Positions 21,433 through 30,840 of a DNA stretch of 64,000 nt are shown piece by piece. Location of the stretch: NCBI RefSeq assembly GCF_949628265.1, contig NC_088786.1, positions 35,485,681 through 35,549,680 of the forward strand. The letters are read 5' to 3'. A program made the translations under genes and the position numbers. The DNA is from Cloeon dipterum (Eukaryota; Arthropoda; Insecta; Ephemeroptera; Baetidae). A model generated the notes under the pieces. It saw only the letters and a program-made list of their open reading frames with translations. It was not told the origin of the DNA and did no database searches. How positions within the stretch are numbered: the stretch's first letter is position 1; the number at the start of each line of letters is the position of its first letter.

Positions 21433-23140
21433 CGCTGAAAATTATTGCATGAGTTAAAAAAGCCAGATTATGTACATACTTTAAACACAATGTAAAAAAA
21501 TAAGAATATAATACTAGGATTCAGGACAGGTCCGTATTAATTTGTTATGTATTTAGCTGGCGAGACAGTGCGTGTGCTACAAAAACAACAACTATGATAC
21601 ATAACGCACTGCAGCGGCGTCTCGTAATAAATCAAGAGGCCGACTGTAGTGTAGACTGACTTGAACGAAGGAATTCAGACAGCCAGACAATACCAATAAG
21701 AGCGTTTAATTTAGAATTATCTCTTTACTTCTTAATAATACTGGTATCAGCGAAACCGAAGAGAGGCCTCAAGTCTAGTTGCAGTCATATGATAATTGTT
21801 GTGATTTTTTTATAGAATAGTTCTGTTTTCGTAACCCGTGGACGTATAATAACAAGAACGAACGAACGCAAAGCCGGCAACAGCGGCGAGAGCGGCAACC
21901 GGCAGCGCAGGCAGTGGCGGGGCTAGCGGGCGGGCGAACATAGAACGAAATAAAAAAAGAAAAGTAGTTGTTCAAGACGTAAGCATGAGGCCACGCCCCC
22001 TCTGCACTGGGCAAAAACAATTCGCACGCAAGAACATTGGACAGGCGAAGAACAGAAAGGCACAGATGTCCCTTGTGTGAACATGCTGATTTTGTCAAGG
22101 TTTTAAAAGAGGGTAAGTGTTGCCCGTGCAACATTAATTTTATAATTTATTATTTTTTATTATGATTAATATGTATGCTCAAATTTAAAGGGCGCAAAAA
22201 ATTTATTTAATGAAATAATTACAGTTGTTCTCGTATATTTTTAATAGAGATGTCTAACAAACGACGAGATTTAAGCTATAAACCATCTTAAAATTGCACT
22301 TGATTTTCGGGAATTAAAATAGATTATTTATTTAAAATTAAGAAAATTAATTAATTGGTAAATGAAACGCATTATTCTTTCTTAGCACTGGAAAAAAGGA
22401 ATCAAAACTATAAAGGAGCACAATTTTTTTAATGTTTTGAGTATTCGTCATGGGTTTCTTTCTGCCCTTTGATATCATATTTTTCATTTAATTGAAGTCT
22501 CAAGCATATTATTTTACTAATACGAAAATATTGAATATATTTCAAGCTACTCCGTCAATATTTTTAACCTTTTATTGCGTAGGCTTTTACTTGTTTTGTT
22601 ATGATAGCATATATTATAAAAGCAAACATTTTTACTTTGAACTTTGGTGACGAGTCGTCGTGTTAGTTTTCAATTTTTGGACTTCGGTTGGACCCTTAAA
22701 AAAAGGCATACTGCATTATTGTCCTATGTTAATTTGATAATTTTGGAAAACTAAAATATCTGCTAAATACTTCTGTAAATTATAGCTGCTTTTTATTACA
22801 TATTTCTAAGAAAAACATTTGATTTTCATATTGAAAGCAGAAGAAACATTTGATTATTTACTCAAGTAAATCTGAGATTCATTTCATTAATAAATAATAG
22901 CAAGTCACCTCTGCAGGGTAAATATTTTGATTGCCATTATTAGATCAAAATTATAATTCTTTGTTTGTTTGTTTTGCTTGATAAGAGCCAAGTCTTGTGC
23001 CAACACACGAGCTTTGATTAAAATTATGCATAAGACCTGCTATAAATTACAAACACTTGATCATCGTCTTATGAAATTTTGGATTTTTCGCAGACAAACA
23101 TAATTGACATGCGCTGCAACTGAATAAAGAGACGTCAAAA
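21433..23140. other. 5' region between CARNMT1 and the sugar transporter
   Basis: A 1.7-kb divergent intergenic interval. The part 21840-22090 is GC-richer and may include promoter or 5' UTR sequence of either gene; 22130-23100 is AT-rich. I see no coding exon with a recognisable product and no bounded repeat. Confidence 0.35.
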
Positions 23141-26100
23141 ATGGTCAGCTCCTCTGAAAACCGCAAGGTTTGTTTAGACTAATTGAAATTATTCGTCAAA
23201 TAATTTATTAATTTGCATTTTAGTCGAGGTTGACGTGGCCCCTCCTTGCCGCAGCCAGTGTCACATTCGTTGGGTCATCTGTGCCAGCCGGGTACAACAT
23301 CGGGGTCATCAACACTCCGCAGCTGGTACTTACATCCTTTTATATTTATCTTGTTTGTTTGTTTAATTTGTTAATTTTCTGGGATTTTGATTGCGGTTCT
23401 TAAGCATGTTTTCAAGCGGTTCCGTTTGAAAACAGATAAATTTGTAATGTGTGATCAGTGTGTGTCACTGCAACGGAACACCACTTCGTCCAGCGCTCGA
23501 ATTGGTTTTGATATCACGTTCGATTGACCGCAACCGCACTTTTCCGTTAGTCGACGTGCAGTGCCTTCGGATCTAAATTGCCTCTTCTGTTTCCAGATAA
23601 TTAAGGAGTTTTGCAACCAAACTGTGTTCGAACGCTACGACGCAGCGCTAAGCGAGTATTCGCTGGACATACTATGGTCGTTTGTGGTGTCCATTTACAT
23701 CGCTGGAGGCACTCTCGGCTCATTCACGGGATGCTGGTTTGCCGACAAGTGGGGCAGGCGAGTAAAATCAAGCCATGACATATCATTTCATTAATTTTAA
23801 CATCTGTATATATCGTGATTTTATTTCAATTATCGGTGGTGTGCTTGGTTTTGGCCAGCAGCACCGGGTTTGGCTTGAATTTGTTGTTGTGCGTGTGGTG
23901 AGGGCACTGTTTGTGCTCCGAGGTCAGCCAGCAGTCGCCGATGTAGGGTTCGATGGCCTCCATCAGGTCCCTGACGGCCTCGGTCGCTCTGCTGCGGTAC
24001 TGCTTGTTCTTGCTGAATTCCCGCACGGCCGCCTCCTCGTCCGAGAGGCCTTTCTTGGCCACGCCGAACTCCGTCGCCACGATCATTGCGCGCATCGCTA
24101 CGCCCAACAGCTTGGTCTCCATCAGCGCCTCGGCCAGGTGGCTGGCGCTCAGAAGGCCGACGGACGTCGGCAGCGCCGAGTGGTGCTTCCTCTGGCACTT
24201 TTCGAGCGTGTTGTTGAACTCCTCGCGGTACACTTCCACCAACAGGTTCACCTGGGTGCACGCAGATAATTTAACGAACATTTGTGGTGATTGATCGTTG
24301 GGAAATAATTTTGAGGTTTGACATAACCACAAAGTTTTTTATGCTGACTTGTTTCTATCTGTTTTTCAATACTTGCACAAGCATTAGAAAGGGAATGCAG
24401 CGTTGCTAAAGAAAACGTAAGTATTTCAATGCGAACAGAACATTAAATAATTCAGCAAATTCCTAAAAATTTATGAAAAACTTAATGGCTCTACTCTCAG
24501 GGTTGCAAAACACCCGCTTTTTGTGTTTTTTTAATTAAATTTTAACCAGTTTCTTGCGGACAACGTTTGAACCTCAGTTTTTAATAATTTTCTTATTATT
24601 TGCACATGACCTCGTCTTAAAAAATTGCCAGAGATAAATTTTTGGAGAAATTGAGGCTGCAAATGCCAATTTAAAAGAAAAACATCTTCCCAATAGAGGA
24701 AAATCTGACCACTCCGACCGCAAATTTTAGATTTTCACGGGAAATATGCAATAAATTCATTTTGTAGCAAGAAATTGGAAAAATTGAGGTGAAAAATCCG
24801 GGTTGTAAGCAAAAAAAGGCAACCCTTTCTACTCTGTGTGGAAAATAAATTCTGGACATATAGCTAATAGTTAAAATTCTATGAGGTTGAATCACAGGCA
24901 AGGAGAGTGGCGGGGTAAACAAGATTTTTTGACTCGTATCCTATTTTAAATTTAATTCAGATATGATTAAAGCTGAACGTTTTCAACAATCGCTGATTCA
25001 GAATTCTCTGCAGCTAATATTGCGGTTATGAATTTTACTGTTGATGTAAATTACTGCTGATGAGGCCTGCGGGGCCGAAACAGCTGCTGTTCATTGCAAA
25101 AACGTGATATTTCATTTTTTTTCTCGTAGAGTTTAAACCATTAGCTAACCGTCACAGAGTAGATCCGACCTATTTTTCTTAAATTTAATTATAAAATTCT
25201 GTGTGTATTTATTTCTGTCTTAAAATATTGCCTCAAAAATTTTGTTGAAAGCAAAAAAAGTTCAATCTTTAGCAAAATATTAATTACACGACTTGATCGA
25301 AACAAATATATTATTATCTGCAAAATCACAGCATATTGATTTTTCATTTTTACTTTAATTAGAACATAAAATATCACTCAGAAATGGTTTGTTCACATTG
25401 AAAAAAACCGTGGGGGGAAATTTAAATTACTATTAGCTTTAAGGAAATTTTCACCAAACAAATAATACGAAATTTTAATTCTTTGCTGTGCTAGTATGAA
25501 TATGAATATAGAAACCTAATTCAAACAAAACAGCATATTTCGGGCTGGTAAAAAACAAAATTCCCTGGTCCGAAATCTATATATCTATCTTACCTTTGAA
25601 GCTCTGACTTCCCGGTCGCCAGCGCAGTAAAGAATGAGGGCAATGTCGACTGCCGGTCTGCAGTAGCGCACCTGGCCAAGACCAATAAGTTTGCACTGGA
25701 CAGGGCGGTGGCGTTGGTCCTGGATAAATTGCAGGTTGCTGGCACTCATGCAGTTGGTGTGACACAGGGTGTTCAGCTGCTCAGGGTGCGGCGTCAGGAT
25801 GTCCTCGATCAGACGATGCAAGTGGCGCTGGAGGAATCGAACCACTTTGCTGACGTCGCGTCCAGGCAGCAGATGCTGCGGCTCCATGTGCGGTCCCAGG
25901 GCGCCGATCACTCGCATTCCCCGCTCGTACAGGCTCTCCTGACTGGCGGTCATGCACCTGAACGAGAATTCCATGACATATTGCAGCCATTTGTTATATT
26001 AAACAAAGGAGTAAAAATATTGGTGAACATCTTCCAGGATAAGCCGCAGTTTTCGAAAAAGTAAATTTCTTGAATTTGTCAACTTAAGTGATTTTTTGGT

Positions 26101-29100
26101 TATTCTGAGCCAGGAGAGGTGATCAACAATTTAAACTTCCATATGGGTTAAAAATTTTGTATTCAATTCGCCAGTTGCATAAACTCATAGTGTTCGAAGC
26201 CGCCAACAGATGGCGCCACCGTAAACTATCGTAATAAAATTAATTTTAAGGCACTTCTGCTGCGATTTCAGACTCAATCCTGCTGCTGTGCATTCTTCAC
26301 TTAATATTCTTTCTTTTGACGTGCTGAAAACCAAAATTGGTATAGCCAATCGCCGTAGAATCGTGAAAAACTATTTTTTTTAAATATAAAATCTTTTCCA
26401 ACGTTTCTACAGCGAATGGCTGGACTGATTTTGGTTTTCAGCACGTCAAAAGAAAGAATATTAAGTGAAGAAAGCGCATTGGCAGGATTGAGTCTGAATT
26501 CGCAGCGGAAGTGCCTTAAAATTAAATTTATTATTAAATTATACTGTGGCGCCATCTGTTGGAGGCTTTGAACACTTAGGGTTTATACAACTGGTGAATT
26601 TTTTTTCAATTATTATAGTCCCACGTAATATTGTTAACAATCTCGAATCATCAAATTAAGAAAACACAAAAAATTGTATTATAAACAATTTTAAAACTTC
26701 AACTTGAATTTTTATATTCACTTTTTTTTCATTCTTAATGGGTCAAGGCAACATTCCATAACCTACCGTGCGAAGACATAAATTAAAAATATAATGTATC
26801 TTTAATTTCATTATCAGGTCACTGTAACATTGAAATCATCCCCTAAATTCTTAAAATATAATCATATACCTGTCTGGCACGAGGAAGGGAAAGGCCGTCT
26901 TCAGGTACGATCCGCGCTTAAGCTTCGGGTCGGAGCGGTCGACGACTGCCGAGCTGCCGTGCAGCACCGCGAGCGCCCTGAGGGCAGCCGAGCAGTGTCT
27001 GTAGTCCATCTCTGGCTGCTGGTGGGCCGGCCGGAAGCCGTCGACCGAGAGGTCCTGCAGGATCAGCACGGATGGCGCGTTGACGTCGCATCCGGGCTCC
27101 GGGGCGCCCTTGTGGAAGGGCATCGAGGGGTTGCGGTGCTTGGGGAGCTCGCAGTGGCCCCTGGTGAGGTAGCTCCTGGGCACGGGCGACTGCATCGTCT
27201 GCACCATGACGTGGCGCAGCTGCGGGTCGACGTGCCTGTAGAAGGCCAGCTCCCTGGCGAAGAGCCGCTGGCCCTCGACCGACCGCGGCTGCTGCTTCAA
27301 CACCATGCTGGCCTTGAACTGCTTCACTTGCTGCTCCACCATCAGCGAGTACACGACCTTCAGCTTCATCATGCCTGGGTATTCGGCCATCAGGGTCCGC
27401 GAGTCCTGTCCCAGCACGCACAGGCTGTCGCAGTTGCGCGGGAAGAGCATGTTCTTCAGGGCTGCGTGCACGTCCTCAGGCTGCAGCAGCTCGCTCGCGC
27501 TGCCCGCAGAATTCTGGCTTATCTTCCCCGAATAAGACGTTGATGCCGACGTCCGTCGCGTGTCTCCGGTCGAGGACGAATTGGAGCGTTGACTGGACGA
27601 TCTGCTACTCGCCGCAGAAGGCGTTTTCCACTCTTGATTCATTACAGAATTTTTGTCTATCGCTTCCCGACGACTTCAAACTTCCTCTGCGAATCTTGAA
27701 ACTGTTTTAAATCAACAATGAGATGGTTGGTAGACACAGGATGCAACAATGGATTTGGATCCTAATTATATAGTTTCTCTTTATTTGCGAACAATAGGAT
27801 CCATCCTAAAATTTTCCTGACAATAGATTGTTTTATGTGATTTAGGAACCGACAATGCTGATGCCCCCTAATGCAAATAATTTTACTTTATTTCCGTAAA
27901 TCTTTAATCTCGTGTGTCGCCCAAACATTTTCAAATATGACAAAATTAAAGAGGAATGATACTGCAAAAGCCTGGAAAATGCTTGTTGCCAATGCATAAA
28001 CTCGTCCCTTAGGATTCAGTTAAAGCCTAAATTGACCTAAGAAGCAGTGTATTTTTTTTAGAAAATTGGCTGGAAAGTTACCGTGCTTTTCAAATGGTAA
28101 TGGCTGTCTCCTTACTTGAAATCCGATTTCATTTCGAAACCAAGAGTTTTCCCAATAAGTGGCAGACACCGTTGGACAGATCTCGACGAGAGGAATCGGA
28201 ATATGCCAAGAAAATATGTTCAAGCGCTGTAAATTTTGCAGAAAATTGGCAAAATTTGAATATTTACTCTAGGAAGGTCCATTTTTTATTATTGCAAATT
28301 GTTGAGAATAAATTGTTTATCGGTCAATTGTGTATGGCATCCAACAATTTAAATAATTTTCAATTGTTGCCTAGTATCATTCCACTTTAACTAATTCATA
28401 TCTTTAACGCATCATTAATGAATAAAAAATTAATGCAATAAATTTTATACTTATAACAGGATTTTTCCCAGACACACGCGTTGCATTTTTTTGTTTCTTG
28501 AACAAAATTGAGGAAAATTATGGATTTTATTATATTTAACAAAGTTTATCACCAACCCTATTCGTGAAAATAATTATGTTTTTTTTTAGATTTTATGTCT
28601 GTGTATTCACTTACATTGCAGGACTCATCATCTTAGAATTTTTATGTGCACCAAAAACTTCATTTTTTTTCGCTACGCTAATTAAACTTTATTTCAACCG
28701 CGCGGTTATCGCAACTACCAACTACCACACTCTAAATAGATTCAACTAGCATGGGTACAATCAAATAGAATTGCGAGAGTAATTCTAAATTTATTGTGAG
28801 ACAATCAAATATTTGCTCATGATCCCAAATGACAACGCGAGCGGCCAAATTTTAAGTACAGTGTCTTAAATGAATCTCTAAGCCCTTCTCAAGGACTTTG
28901 ATTTTTTTCAGCACGTGTACTTGACATTCTCACTTTCATAAATTAATAAACGAAAATTATAATCTTTCATTTCAGGAAAGGAGCAATATTTGCAAACAAC
29001 TTTCTCGGCCTCTTTGCCGCAATCCTGTTTGTCGCCACCCCTGCCGCAAGATCGGTGGAAATGCTTGTGCTGGCTAGATTTCTTGTGGGACTTTCATCAG

Positions 29101-30840
29101 GTAATAATCGGAGATAAATTTTAATTAAAATAATAATCCCCACATTCCAGGCTTAACAACCAGCGTCGTTCCCATGTATATGACCGAGATTGTGACTCTG
29201 GACTGGCGCGGGCCCATGGGCGTTTTGTGCCCCCTCGGAATTTGCTTTGGCGTCCTTCTATCACAAATTCTCGGACTAGAATTCATTCTGGGTACGATCA
29301 AGGATTTAATATTATTTCACCAGTTTAATAATTGCCCGCATTTAGGCTCAACCGACACCTGGCATTACTTGCTCGGCCTATATGGCATTCTAGTCCTCGT
29401 CAGCTTGGTTGTTTTACCCTTCCTGCCTGAGAGCCCGAAGTACTTGTTCGCCATCAAAAAAGATGAAGATGGATGCACAGAAGGTGCTGGCGTTAATTTA
29501 AAAAGAAGTCGAAATCTCTATTGATTTTTATAATATAATTTCCAGCCTTAACAAAACTCCGCGGCCTTCCCAAGAGTGCCTTAACGACGGAAATCGCGGA
29601 AACGAAAGCTGCCAGCGTCAGAGAAATGAGCGAAGGGAAATGGAGCATTTTGCGCCTGCTCAAATCCAAGTCTCTGCGCTGGTCCTTGATTTTGGTTTGC
29701 GCCATGCAAGGTGGACAGCAGCTCAGCGGCATTAATGCTGTAATTTAATCACAATCCGGCAATTTTTGTCCCTAATCAAAGGATTATGCACTTCAGGTCT
29801 TCTACTACTCGGTGCCTATATTCAAAAGTGCCGGTCTTGATACCGAGAGCAGTCAGTACGCCAGCATCGGAGCCGGCGTGGTCAATTTCCTCGTCGCGGC
29901 GCTTGCAACCTTCCTCACCAGCAGGTTCCGTCGACGAGCCCTTATGCTCTTCAGCTGCTCCACTGTGGTTGTCTGCCTTCTCTCGCTTGCAGTTTCTATT
30001 TATTTCATGGTAAATGAATTTAAATCTAATATATATGCAGGGTTGCAAAAAACCCGCATTTAAAAAATGCAGTTCAGTGATAAAAAAACGTTTTTTTTTC
30101 ATGCAGGCATTGTTTGCACCTCAGTTTTAAATAATTTTCTAATTATTAGTTCATGACCTCGACTTTAAAAATTGTCAGAGAGAAATTGAGGAAGCAAATG
30201 GCAATTTAAAAGAAAAAATCTGTACTGTAGTGGAAATTTTGGTCACTCCGACTGCAAATTTTAGATTTTCACATTGGAAAATAGAATAAATTAATTTCTT
30301 GCGCAAGAAATTGGTACAAACCAGTAGTGAAAAAATGCAAATGCAACCCTAACTACATATATGACTTTTCCAATGCAAGAGTGAACAAGTAAAAAATAAT
30401 ATGTGTGGCAATTTTTAGGATGCTGTTCCTTGGATGTCTTACGTTTCAATTGTTGCGATGCTGTCCTATGTCTTTTTCTACGGCTTGGGACTGGGTCCCA
30501 TTCCTTACTTTATCGCCTCAGGTAAATTTTACCAACCTCATCTAGATTTAACTAAATAAAAAAAACCATTTTTCCAGAACTATTCACTGTTGGCCCGCGG
30601 TCAGCAGGAATGGCCCTCGGTAGTATGGCTAATTGGGGCGCCAACTTTTTGGTTGGAATGACGTTCCCTTCGATGCAGTCTGCGATCGGCGCACTTTCCT
30701 TTATACCATTTGCTACTTCAACGGTGTTCCTCACTCTGCTATTGTGGAAGAAACTGCCTGAAACATTTGGCGTGGACCCTGCCGAGGCTGACACTATCAG
30801 CTCTGAGGAAGTGGCGCTTCAGAATAAATCATCTCCATGA
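23141..30840 (+). CDS. Facilitative sugar transporter (SLC2A/GLUT family)
   Basis: Major-facilitator hexose uniporter of the plasma membrane. Ten coding exons: 23141-23167, 23224-23325, 23597-23757, 28976-29100, 29151-29291, 29346-29483, 29546-29739, 29797-30009, 30419-30521, 30578-30840, total 488 residues, the family norm. Family signatures: PAGYNIGVINTPQL in TM1, GCWFADKWGRKGA between TM2 and TM3, VVPMYMTEI, PESPKYL, GGQQLSGINAVFYYS (residues 287-301, QLS motif at 290-292 typical of class I glucose-preferring GLUTs), GLGPIPYF and ELFTVGPR. The cytochalasin-site tryptophan of human GLUT1 (W388) is tyrosine (Y397). Intron 3 (23758-28975) begins with GC rather than GT if the frame is to be kept, and houses the CHK-kinase gene on the other strand. 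A 5' non-coding exon may exist upstream but was not identified. Confidence 0.93.
23826..27642 (-). CDS. EcKinase/CHK-like protein, predicted pseudokinase, nested gene
   Basis: Three exons, 26870-27642, 25594-25957 and 23826-24251, give 520 residues, longer than typical EcKL proteins (about 400-430) because of a Ser/Thr/Arg-rich N-terminal extension (1-50). The EcKinase (DUF1679/CHK) fold is recognisable: ASMVLKQQP with the likely ATP-binding lysine, LFARELAFYRHV, SVLILQDLSVDGFRP, ALRALAVLHGSSAVV, and the helical C-terminal lobe. The catalytic loop, normally HGDxWxxN, reads CHTNCMSASNLQF: catalytic Asp is Asn326 (codon 25753-25755), Gly is Thr325 and Trp is Met. The metal-binding DFQ motif reads GLGQ (350-353). 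The downstream PAVD aspartate remains. Loss of both acidic residues predicts no kinase activity, though the frame is intact and splice sites are good. The whole gene lies within intron 3 of the GLUT gene, on the opposite strand. In insects, active relatives phosphorylate ecdysteroids and xenobiotics. Confidence 0.88.
24498..24828 (+). mobile_element. Family A MITE (hAT-like), copy 1
   Basis: A 331-bp element starting CAGGGTTGCAAAA and ending AAGGCAACCCT(T), flanked by perfect 8-bp duplications TCTACTCT (24490-24497 and 24829-24836). It sits in the intron of the pseudokinase gene (hence also in the GLUT intron). Best-delimited copy of the commonest family in the window. Confidence 0.92.
26171..26594. 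mobile_element. Family G foldback MITE, copy 1
   Basis: A 424-bp near-palindrome: CCAGTTGCATAAACTCATAG at the left is mirrored by a right end reading CTTAGGGTTTATACAACTGG. Arms continue inwards with CAACAGATGGCGCCAC and its complement, and GACGTGCTGAAAACCAAAAT and its complement, leaving a short centre. It matches 46240-46645 over most of its length. No target-site duplication could be fixed. Located in the pseudokinase/GLUT intron. Confidence 0.88.
27945..28265 (+). repeat. Family I repeat, copy 1
   Basis: Roughly 320 bases sharing ordered blocks with 33785-34060: TTAAAGAGGA(A/T)TGAT, CTCATCCCTTAG-like, GTCTCC(T)TACTTGAAAT, CACCGTTG(G/C)ACAGATCTCG and CGACGAGAGGAATCG. Termini undefined. It lies in the GLUT intron upstream of the pseudokinase gene start. 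Confidence 0.7.
30038..30351 (+). mobile_element. Family A MITE, copy 2, in GLUT intron 8
   Basis: Begins CAGGGTTGCAAAAAACCCGC and ends AAATGCAAATGCAACCCT(A). Internal blocks match copy 1 (CAGTTTTAAATAATTTTCTAA, given in parts; AGAGAAATTGAGG; GCAAATTTTAGATTTTCACA). The flanks show no clean 8-bp duplication. Confidence 0.82.

Follow-up and report, generated by a model that had tools for sequence, protein, structure and literature searches.

A 64,000-nucleotide stretch of the genome of the mayfly Cloeon dipterum (NCBI RefSeq assembly GCF_949628265.1, contig NC_088786.1, positions 35,485,681 to 35,549,680 of the forward strand), referred to here as the window, carries an EcKL-like gene on its minus strand, from position 27642 to position 23826. 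Unless a contig is named, coordinates are those of the window. This gene, called the window gene below, is real and intact. It very probably encodes an EcKL pseudokinase, and a second gene of this kind was found in the genome. The reading that we favor, with a probability of about 0.65, is that it is a maintained pseudokinase that forms, together with a sister gene on contig C2, an old lineage without the full phosphotransfer machinery. According to an excerpt of PMC10211241, a pseudokinase is a protein with a kinase domain that lacks conserved catalytic motifs. By alignment, the window protein has a kinase-family domain in which at least one catalytic residue is missing.

The intact frame of 520 residues with preserved splice sites that was read from the letters in the original prediction is borne out by the gene model. 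Three exons, separated by introns of 912 and 1342 nt with GT..AG at both, form a coding sequence of 1563 nt (520 codons and a stop) with no internal stop. The GC content at third codon positions (GC3) is 0.835, which exceeds the values of nine EcKL genes of this genome that have a single exon (0.512 to 0.786), and the introns have 32 to 33% GC. Since the frame is open for just 11 codons 5' of the ATG (frame start at 27675), M1 is the earliest possible start in exon 1; the second in-frame methionine is residue 65. The Ser-rich N-terminal extension, which had been singled out as unusual, is indeed there (Table 1), and GC3 over codons 1 to 55 is 0.636.

The EcKinase-like identity was verified with Pfam. 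Residues 94 to 399 match the EcKL family (PF02958) with 106.9 bits, over positions 12 to 293 of the 294 of the profile and against a curated cutoff of 22 bits. A search of the entire assembly with the PF02958 profile gave 65 exon-level matches, and manual grouping of these produced 35 genes, comprising the window gene, the C2 gene, and 33 comparison genes. Multi-exon comparison genes were stitched from hits of a profile built from the nine single-exon copies; their ends are incomplete, and some of them may be pseudogenes. Conserved-column counts below 33 in this comparison set reflect missing pieces of the stitched genes. Outside this genome, 42 stretches of a prokaryote collection and 140 of a viral collection matched a peptide pattern and none coded for a relative, in a weak test that used only two patterns for each collection. 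A search of solved structures with E values up to 10 returned a single hit, a PERIOD protein at an E value of 0.32, which was not accepted as a relative.

The replacement of HGD, the Brenner-type motif of the catalytic loop, by HTN and of DFQ by GLGQ, the central claim made for this gene, stands in the alignment of the 35 genes. Both the Asp of HGD and the Asp of DFQ are present in 33/33 other EcKL genes of this genome, as is the loop Asn; the loss of the two aspartates in the window gene is therefore not ordinary variation of the family in this genome. The Gln of DFQ is found in 32/33 of these genes and the Gly of HGD in 28/33. The loop motif reads HGD in 26 of the 33, and the remaining seven have HAD (four genes), QGD, NGD, and HTD, with Asp in every one. 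In the window protein, the His of HGD is retained, Gly and Asp are gone, and the loop has one extra residue (HTNCMSASN versus HGDxW-xxN). D-F-Q aligns with G350-L351-G352, and Q353 falls one column further (GLGQ, residues 350 to 353). No acidic residue occurs in the loop HTNCMSASN or in LIGLGQVRY.

In the comparison set of 33 EcKLs, thirteen columns reach 95% identity or more, and the window protein retains 10 of these. It departs from the other three, which hold the Asp of HGD and the Asp and Gln of DFQ. Those retained include Lys116 and Glu131 of the N-lobe, His228, the loop Asn332, the distal Asp362, and Tyr387. At a threshold of at least 70% identity there are 39 columns, of which the window protein retains 22 and the C2 protein 21. 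In common with the EcKL family, to which the ecdysteroid 22-kinases BmEc22K and AgEcK2 belong, the domain match is above the curated cutoff, and the Lys, Glu, Asp-Leu, His, loop Asn, and distal Asp columns are kept. In contrast, the window protein has neither the HGD nor the DFQ Asp and adds a Cys/His tail and the Ser-rich extension. BmEc22K and AgEcK2 are described as ecdysteroid kinases in an excerpt of PMC12117438, and the window protein is likened to them by description only. Partly altered motifs were also seen in the EcKLs L024, L019, L025, and L023 (HTD, QGD, NGD, and DFA for DFQ), with both aspartates retained.

Two further explanations for the altered motifs were considered. An alternative exon restoring the catalytic loop, named at the outset as a possible refutation, was not found: the profile of nine canonical EcKLs run over positions 23301 to 28300 (frames of at least 25 residues, E value up to 0.05) matched only exons 1 and 2, and a motif scan of the gene strand over 23826 to 27642 gave no HGD-like or DFQ-like match. 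Sequencing error could account for either Asp with one base (GAC to AAC, GAT to GGT), but all the changes together, that is, the loss of both acids, Gly, Gln, and Phe and the gain of an extra loop residue, would require several errors.

The second gene that carries the favored reading is the one on contig C2. In a tblastn search against the fetched EcKL loci, the best match of the window protein was C2:27845700-27847600 (134 bits, E value of 4e-39, residues 253 to 508), with the next at 50.8 bits. A search of the whole genome from the window gene gave 114.9 bits for the C2 gene versus 33.3 bits for the next gene, and in the reverse search with the C2 gene the window gene came at the top after the self-match. 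The C2 gene was modeled as two exons (27847425-27846730 and 27846670-27845870) with an inferred intron of 59 nt that restores the frame, and encodes 498 residues with a GC3 of 0.703. Its motifs are VVD for HGD, with His and Gly lost and Asp retained, and KFR for DFQ, with Asp and Gln lost. Maximum-likelihood analysis of the 35 EcKLs placed the window and C2 genes as sisters (support 100/100); their stem measures 1.27, and their tips 1.08 and 1.29. The sisterhood was recovered at 100/99 after the long rows L017, L023, and L024 were dropped and the pair was stripped of its catalytic motifs. The two proteins are identical at 132 of 445 aligned residues (about 30%). With respect to gene structure, the apparently single, very short intron of the C2 gene (L029:2371-3926) lies 20 alignment columns beyond the site of intron 1 of the window gene, and the second intron of the window gene is without counterpart there. 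In the flanks of the C2 gene (L046 and L047), no obvious host gene was seen by eye among reading frames of at least 110 residues.

The pair also has in common a Cys/His tail near the C terminus (Table 1). Within the scanned EcKL frames, C-x5-H-K-x-C-P-H is found only in the window and C2 genes. A looser form of the pattern gave five hits among 2614 reading frames and spliced proteins of the EcKL loci: four of them come from the window and C2 genes, both of which were hit in an exon frame and again in the spliced protein, and the fifth is a looser match in a frame of 26 residues. The scan was limited to the fetched stretches, and a C-terminal exon beyond them would escape it. When the last 60 residues were shuffled 20000 times, the spacing C-x5-H-x2-C-x-H came up 4 times with the window protein and twice with the C2 protein. 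The tail falls outside the stretch used for the EcKL tree.

The coding sequences of the pair were compared by codon position. Identities at the first, second, and third positions are 0.41, 0.55, and 0.36, versus 0.26, 0.26, and 0.32 expected from composition; the third positions are near saturation, and the first and second are not. An identity of about 30% with nearly saturated third positions argues against neutral decay. When the window coding sequence was left to evolve in a neutral simulation (substitutions only, with no indels and no selection), it was free of a premature stop in 129 of 400 runs at 0.02 substitutions per site, in 20/400 at 0.05, in 1/400 at 0.1, and in 0/400 at 0.2. The codon-position pattern and the simulation speak for long maintenance of both proteins.

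The original prediction had preferred a pseudokinase with a binding or regulatory role over a decaying gene. The first part of this claim is favored because the frame is intact, conservation depends on codon position, the sister is also without the DFQ Asp, and the near-invariant columns lost are those of the Asp of HGD and the Asp and Gln of DFQ; the binding or regulatory role is something that we only infer. The claim of a coordinated loss of both acids holds for the window gene, which has lost both, but does not extend to the C2 sister, which retains the HGD Asp. Given that the DFQ Asp is missing from both genes, the simplest history would be one in which the ancestor of the pair was already without this metal-binding residue and the HGD Asp was lost later, in the window gene alone.

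Several points weigh against a maintained pseudokinase lineage. The case is built on the sequence of one genome alone. The predicted structure of exon 1 by itself had a mean confidence (predicted local distance difference test, pLDDT) of 36.1 and the model was left unused, so that preservation of the fold, too, is judged from sequence. The C2 model depends on the inferred 59-nt intron, as the two C2 frames fail to join otherwise, and the exon 1 match has one TAA where it runs into the inferred-intron stretch. The C2 protein loses 4 of the 13 near-invariant columns in the alignment, namely, the DFQ Asp, the DFQ Gln, a Pro of the N-lobe, and the N-lobe Lys, the latter being scored as lost because it lies one column off. 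Since C2 retains the HGD Asp, the pair does not go back to one simple shared double loss. The DFQ Asp is replaced differently in the two genes, by Gly in the window gene and by Lys in C2, so that independent losses are possible. The kinase POMK is active without the HRD and DFG aspartates, according to an excerpt of PMC10211241. For the pair, dN is 0.90 and dS 1.77 by NG86 (0.90 and 1.72 by LWL85), and with dS saturated the dN/dS ratio (nonsynonymous to synonymous divergence) serves as an indication only. What the codon test averages over is the whole period after the split, not the period after the loss of catalysis, and by itself it gives no date for that loss.

Some of these points would fit a different account, in which catalysis was lost independently after the split, so that the two genes are divergent EcKLs and not a pseudokinase lineage, and C2 may keep residual activity. 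The differing replacements (HTN and GLG versus VVD and KFR) and the HGD Asp of C2 agree with it. However, both genes are without the DFQ Asp, the DFQ Gln, and the HGD Gly, which are otherwise universal or frequent in the comparison genes (33/33, 32/33, and 28/33), and the pair has a long common stem and a private C-terminal tail; we consider this account unlikely. There is rather little chance that the window protein is an atypical yet active kinase in which other residues of the pocket have taken over catalysis or metal binding. The retained Lys116, Glu131, and Asn332, the HGD Asp of the C2 sister, and the precedent of POMK in PMC10211241, as excerpted, would be compatible with activity, but the window protein is without both acids that every other EcKL of the comparison set carries, and neither HTNCMSASN nor LIGLGQVRY offers an acidic substitute. 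It is highly improbable that the gene is a decaying, functionless duplicate too recent to have accumulated stops: both catalytic aspartates are gone, but the frame is open with two canonical introns and an AATAAA after the stop, GC3 is above that of the single-exon EcKLs, the genome holds no close functional parent (its nearest relative, at about 30% identity, is also without the DFQ Asp), and just 1/400 simulated neutral copies stayed stop-free at 0.1 substitutions per site.

Under the favored reading of a maintained pseudokinase, the window protein would retain the kinase fold and act by binding. Nucleotide may still bind to it, weakly or metal-free. One option is that the protein holds a small-molecule ligand of the kind that EcKLs act on; another is that it pairs with a catalytic EcKL and regulates it, as Fam20A does Fam20C. 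In excerpts of PMC5413348 and PMC10211241, Fam20A is described as a pseudokinase that serves as activator of its paralogue, the kinase Fam20C; it is likewise a noncatalytic paralogue beside catalytic members. In contrast to the window protein, it belongs to another kinase family, one of the secretory pathway. The Cys/His tail of the window protein might bind a metal or a partner, and its Ser-rich N terminus might be a disordered regulatory tail. A more far-reaching proposal is that of an ancient EcKL pseudokinase subfamily that lost the DFQ Asp, carries a possibly zinc-binding Cys/His tail, and acts as a noncatalytic ligand sensor or regulator of ecdysteroid/xenobiotic kinases; it is tentative, and we regard it as more doubtful than probable.

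An unusual N-terminal extension has been described for another EcKL protein. In an excerpt of PMC12117438, that extension amounts to about 205 residues by the lengths given (635 versus 430 residues), and an ATP-binding Brenner's motif is mentioned within it. The window protein likewise has an extension before the EcKL domain, the two proteins being compared by description only. As told in the same excerpt, Scanlan and Robin 2024 assigned the EcKLs of 140 insect genomes to 13 subfamilies.

Work on EcKLs treats them as enzymes whose phosphorylation of steroid hormones and toxins inactivates these compounds. If the pseudokinase reading is true, the family would extend to proteins with a binding or regulatory role; these should drop out of counts of “detoxification enzymes” and would be candidate regulators of ecdysteroid recycling. 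Pseudoenzymes as such are common. An excerpt of PMC12869072 reports 40 pseudokinases in a Drosophila survey and states that paralogues in large enzyme families, with EcKL among the examples, may be catalytically inactive. In an excerpt of PMC9758233, on Legionella kinases, EcKL appears only among the Pfam families on which the clustering was based. A search of the open-access literature for noncatalytic EcKL members yielded no text that we judged to be such a description; Scanlan and Robin 2024 lay outside that search. What is new beyond a single odd gene is that the gene most closely related to it in this genome also codes for a noncanonical kinase.

Table 1. Features of the window gene and of the sugar-transporter gene around it (window coordinates)
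Feature	Position	Strand	Description and basis
Exon 1	26870..27642	-	Ser-rich N-terminal extension; N-lobe, in which Lys116 and Glu131 are retained; gene model, Pfam EcKL, column table
Exon 2	25594..25957	-	Catalytic-loop region and former DFQ region; gene model, alignment
Exon 3	23826..24251	-	C-terminal part, stop codon at 23828-23826; gene model
Ser-rich stretch, residues 1-50	27493..27642	-	18 Ser by count; 8 Ser in the first 50 residues of the C2 sister
HTN replacing HGD, codons 324-326	25753..25761	-	CAC ACC AAC; alignment, codons
Asn332, retained loop Asn	25735..25737	-	33/33 in other EcKLs; alignment
GLG replacing DFQ, codons 350-352	25675..25683	-	GGT CTT GGC; alignment
C-terminal tail CWLTSEHKQCPH, residues 486-497	23898..23933	-	C-x5-H-K-x-C-P-H, common to the C2 sister
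AATAAA, possible poly(A) signal	23820..23825	-	Directly 3' of the stop codon of the window gene
First transporter exons, as read	23141..23757	+	23141-23167, 23224-23325, 23597-23757; frame, splice sites
Host intron of the sugar-transporter gene	23758..28975	+	5218 nt, apparent GC donor CAG|GCGAGT, AG acceptor; holds the whole window gene
Next transporter exon 3' of the nested gene	28976..29100	+	Sugar_tr, frame; additional frames with Sugar_tr matches extend to 30063

The antisense embedding of the window gene in an intron of a sugar-transporter gene was confirmed by Sugar_tr matches on either side of it. On the plus strand, positions 30 to 76 of the profile match at 23528-23794, and positions 75 to 117, 117 to 205, 213 to 274, and 273 to 344 match within 28950-30063; the match to 75 to 117 has 18.8 bits, under the curated cutoff of 22.3. 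Five of the seven frames were matched, and no family was found for the frames 23224-23403 and 22492-22650. Among the first three transporter exons, only the frame of the third has a Sugar_tr match, the first two being supported by frame and splice sites. These three exons and the exon at 28976-29100 form one frame with the GC donor. With the GT at 23762 as donor instead, the exon that follows would no longer be in frame with Sugar_tr. The stop codon of the window gene lies 68 nt from the donor of the host intron. A Sugar_tr search of the whole genome, in which 9 of 145 candidates were scored, did not list the transporter exons of the window. Going by the motifs of GLUT1, we take the host transporter to be GLUT-like.

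Another EcKL gene, L006 (C1:35475719-35479567), is found nearby, with its match about 8 kb to the left of the window. It is a single-exon gene with HGD and DFQ intact and does not form a sister pair with the window gene.

Intron 1 of the window gene contains a fold-back element at 26165-26600, which consists of two arms of 213 nt that are 85% complementary and separated by a gap of 10 nt. Among the best 40 of 2426 candidate places, copies of this element that are 86 to 90% identical were found on contigs C1, C2, C3, and C5. Judged by its arms and copies, it is an abundant repeat resembling a miniature inverted-repeat transposable element (MITE-like).

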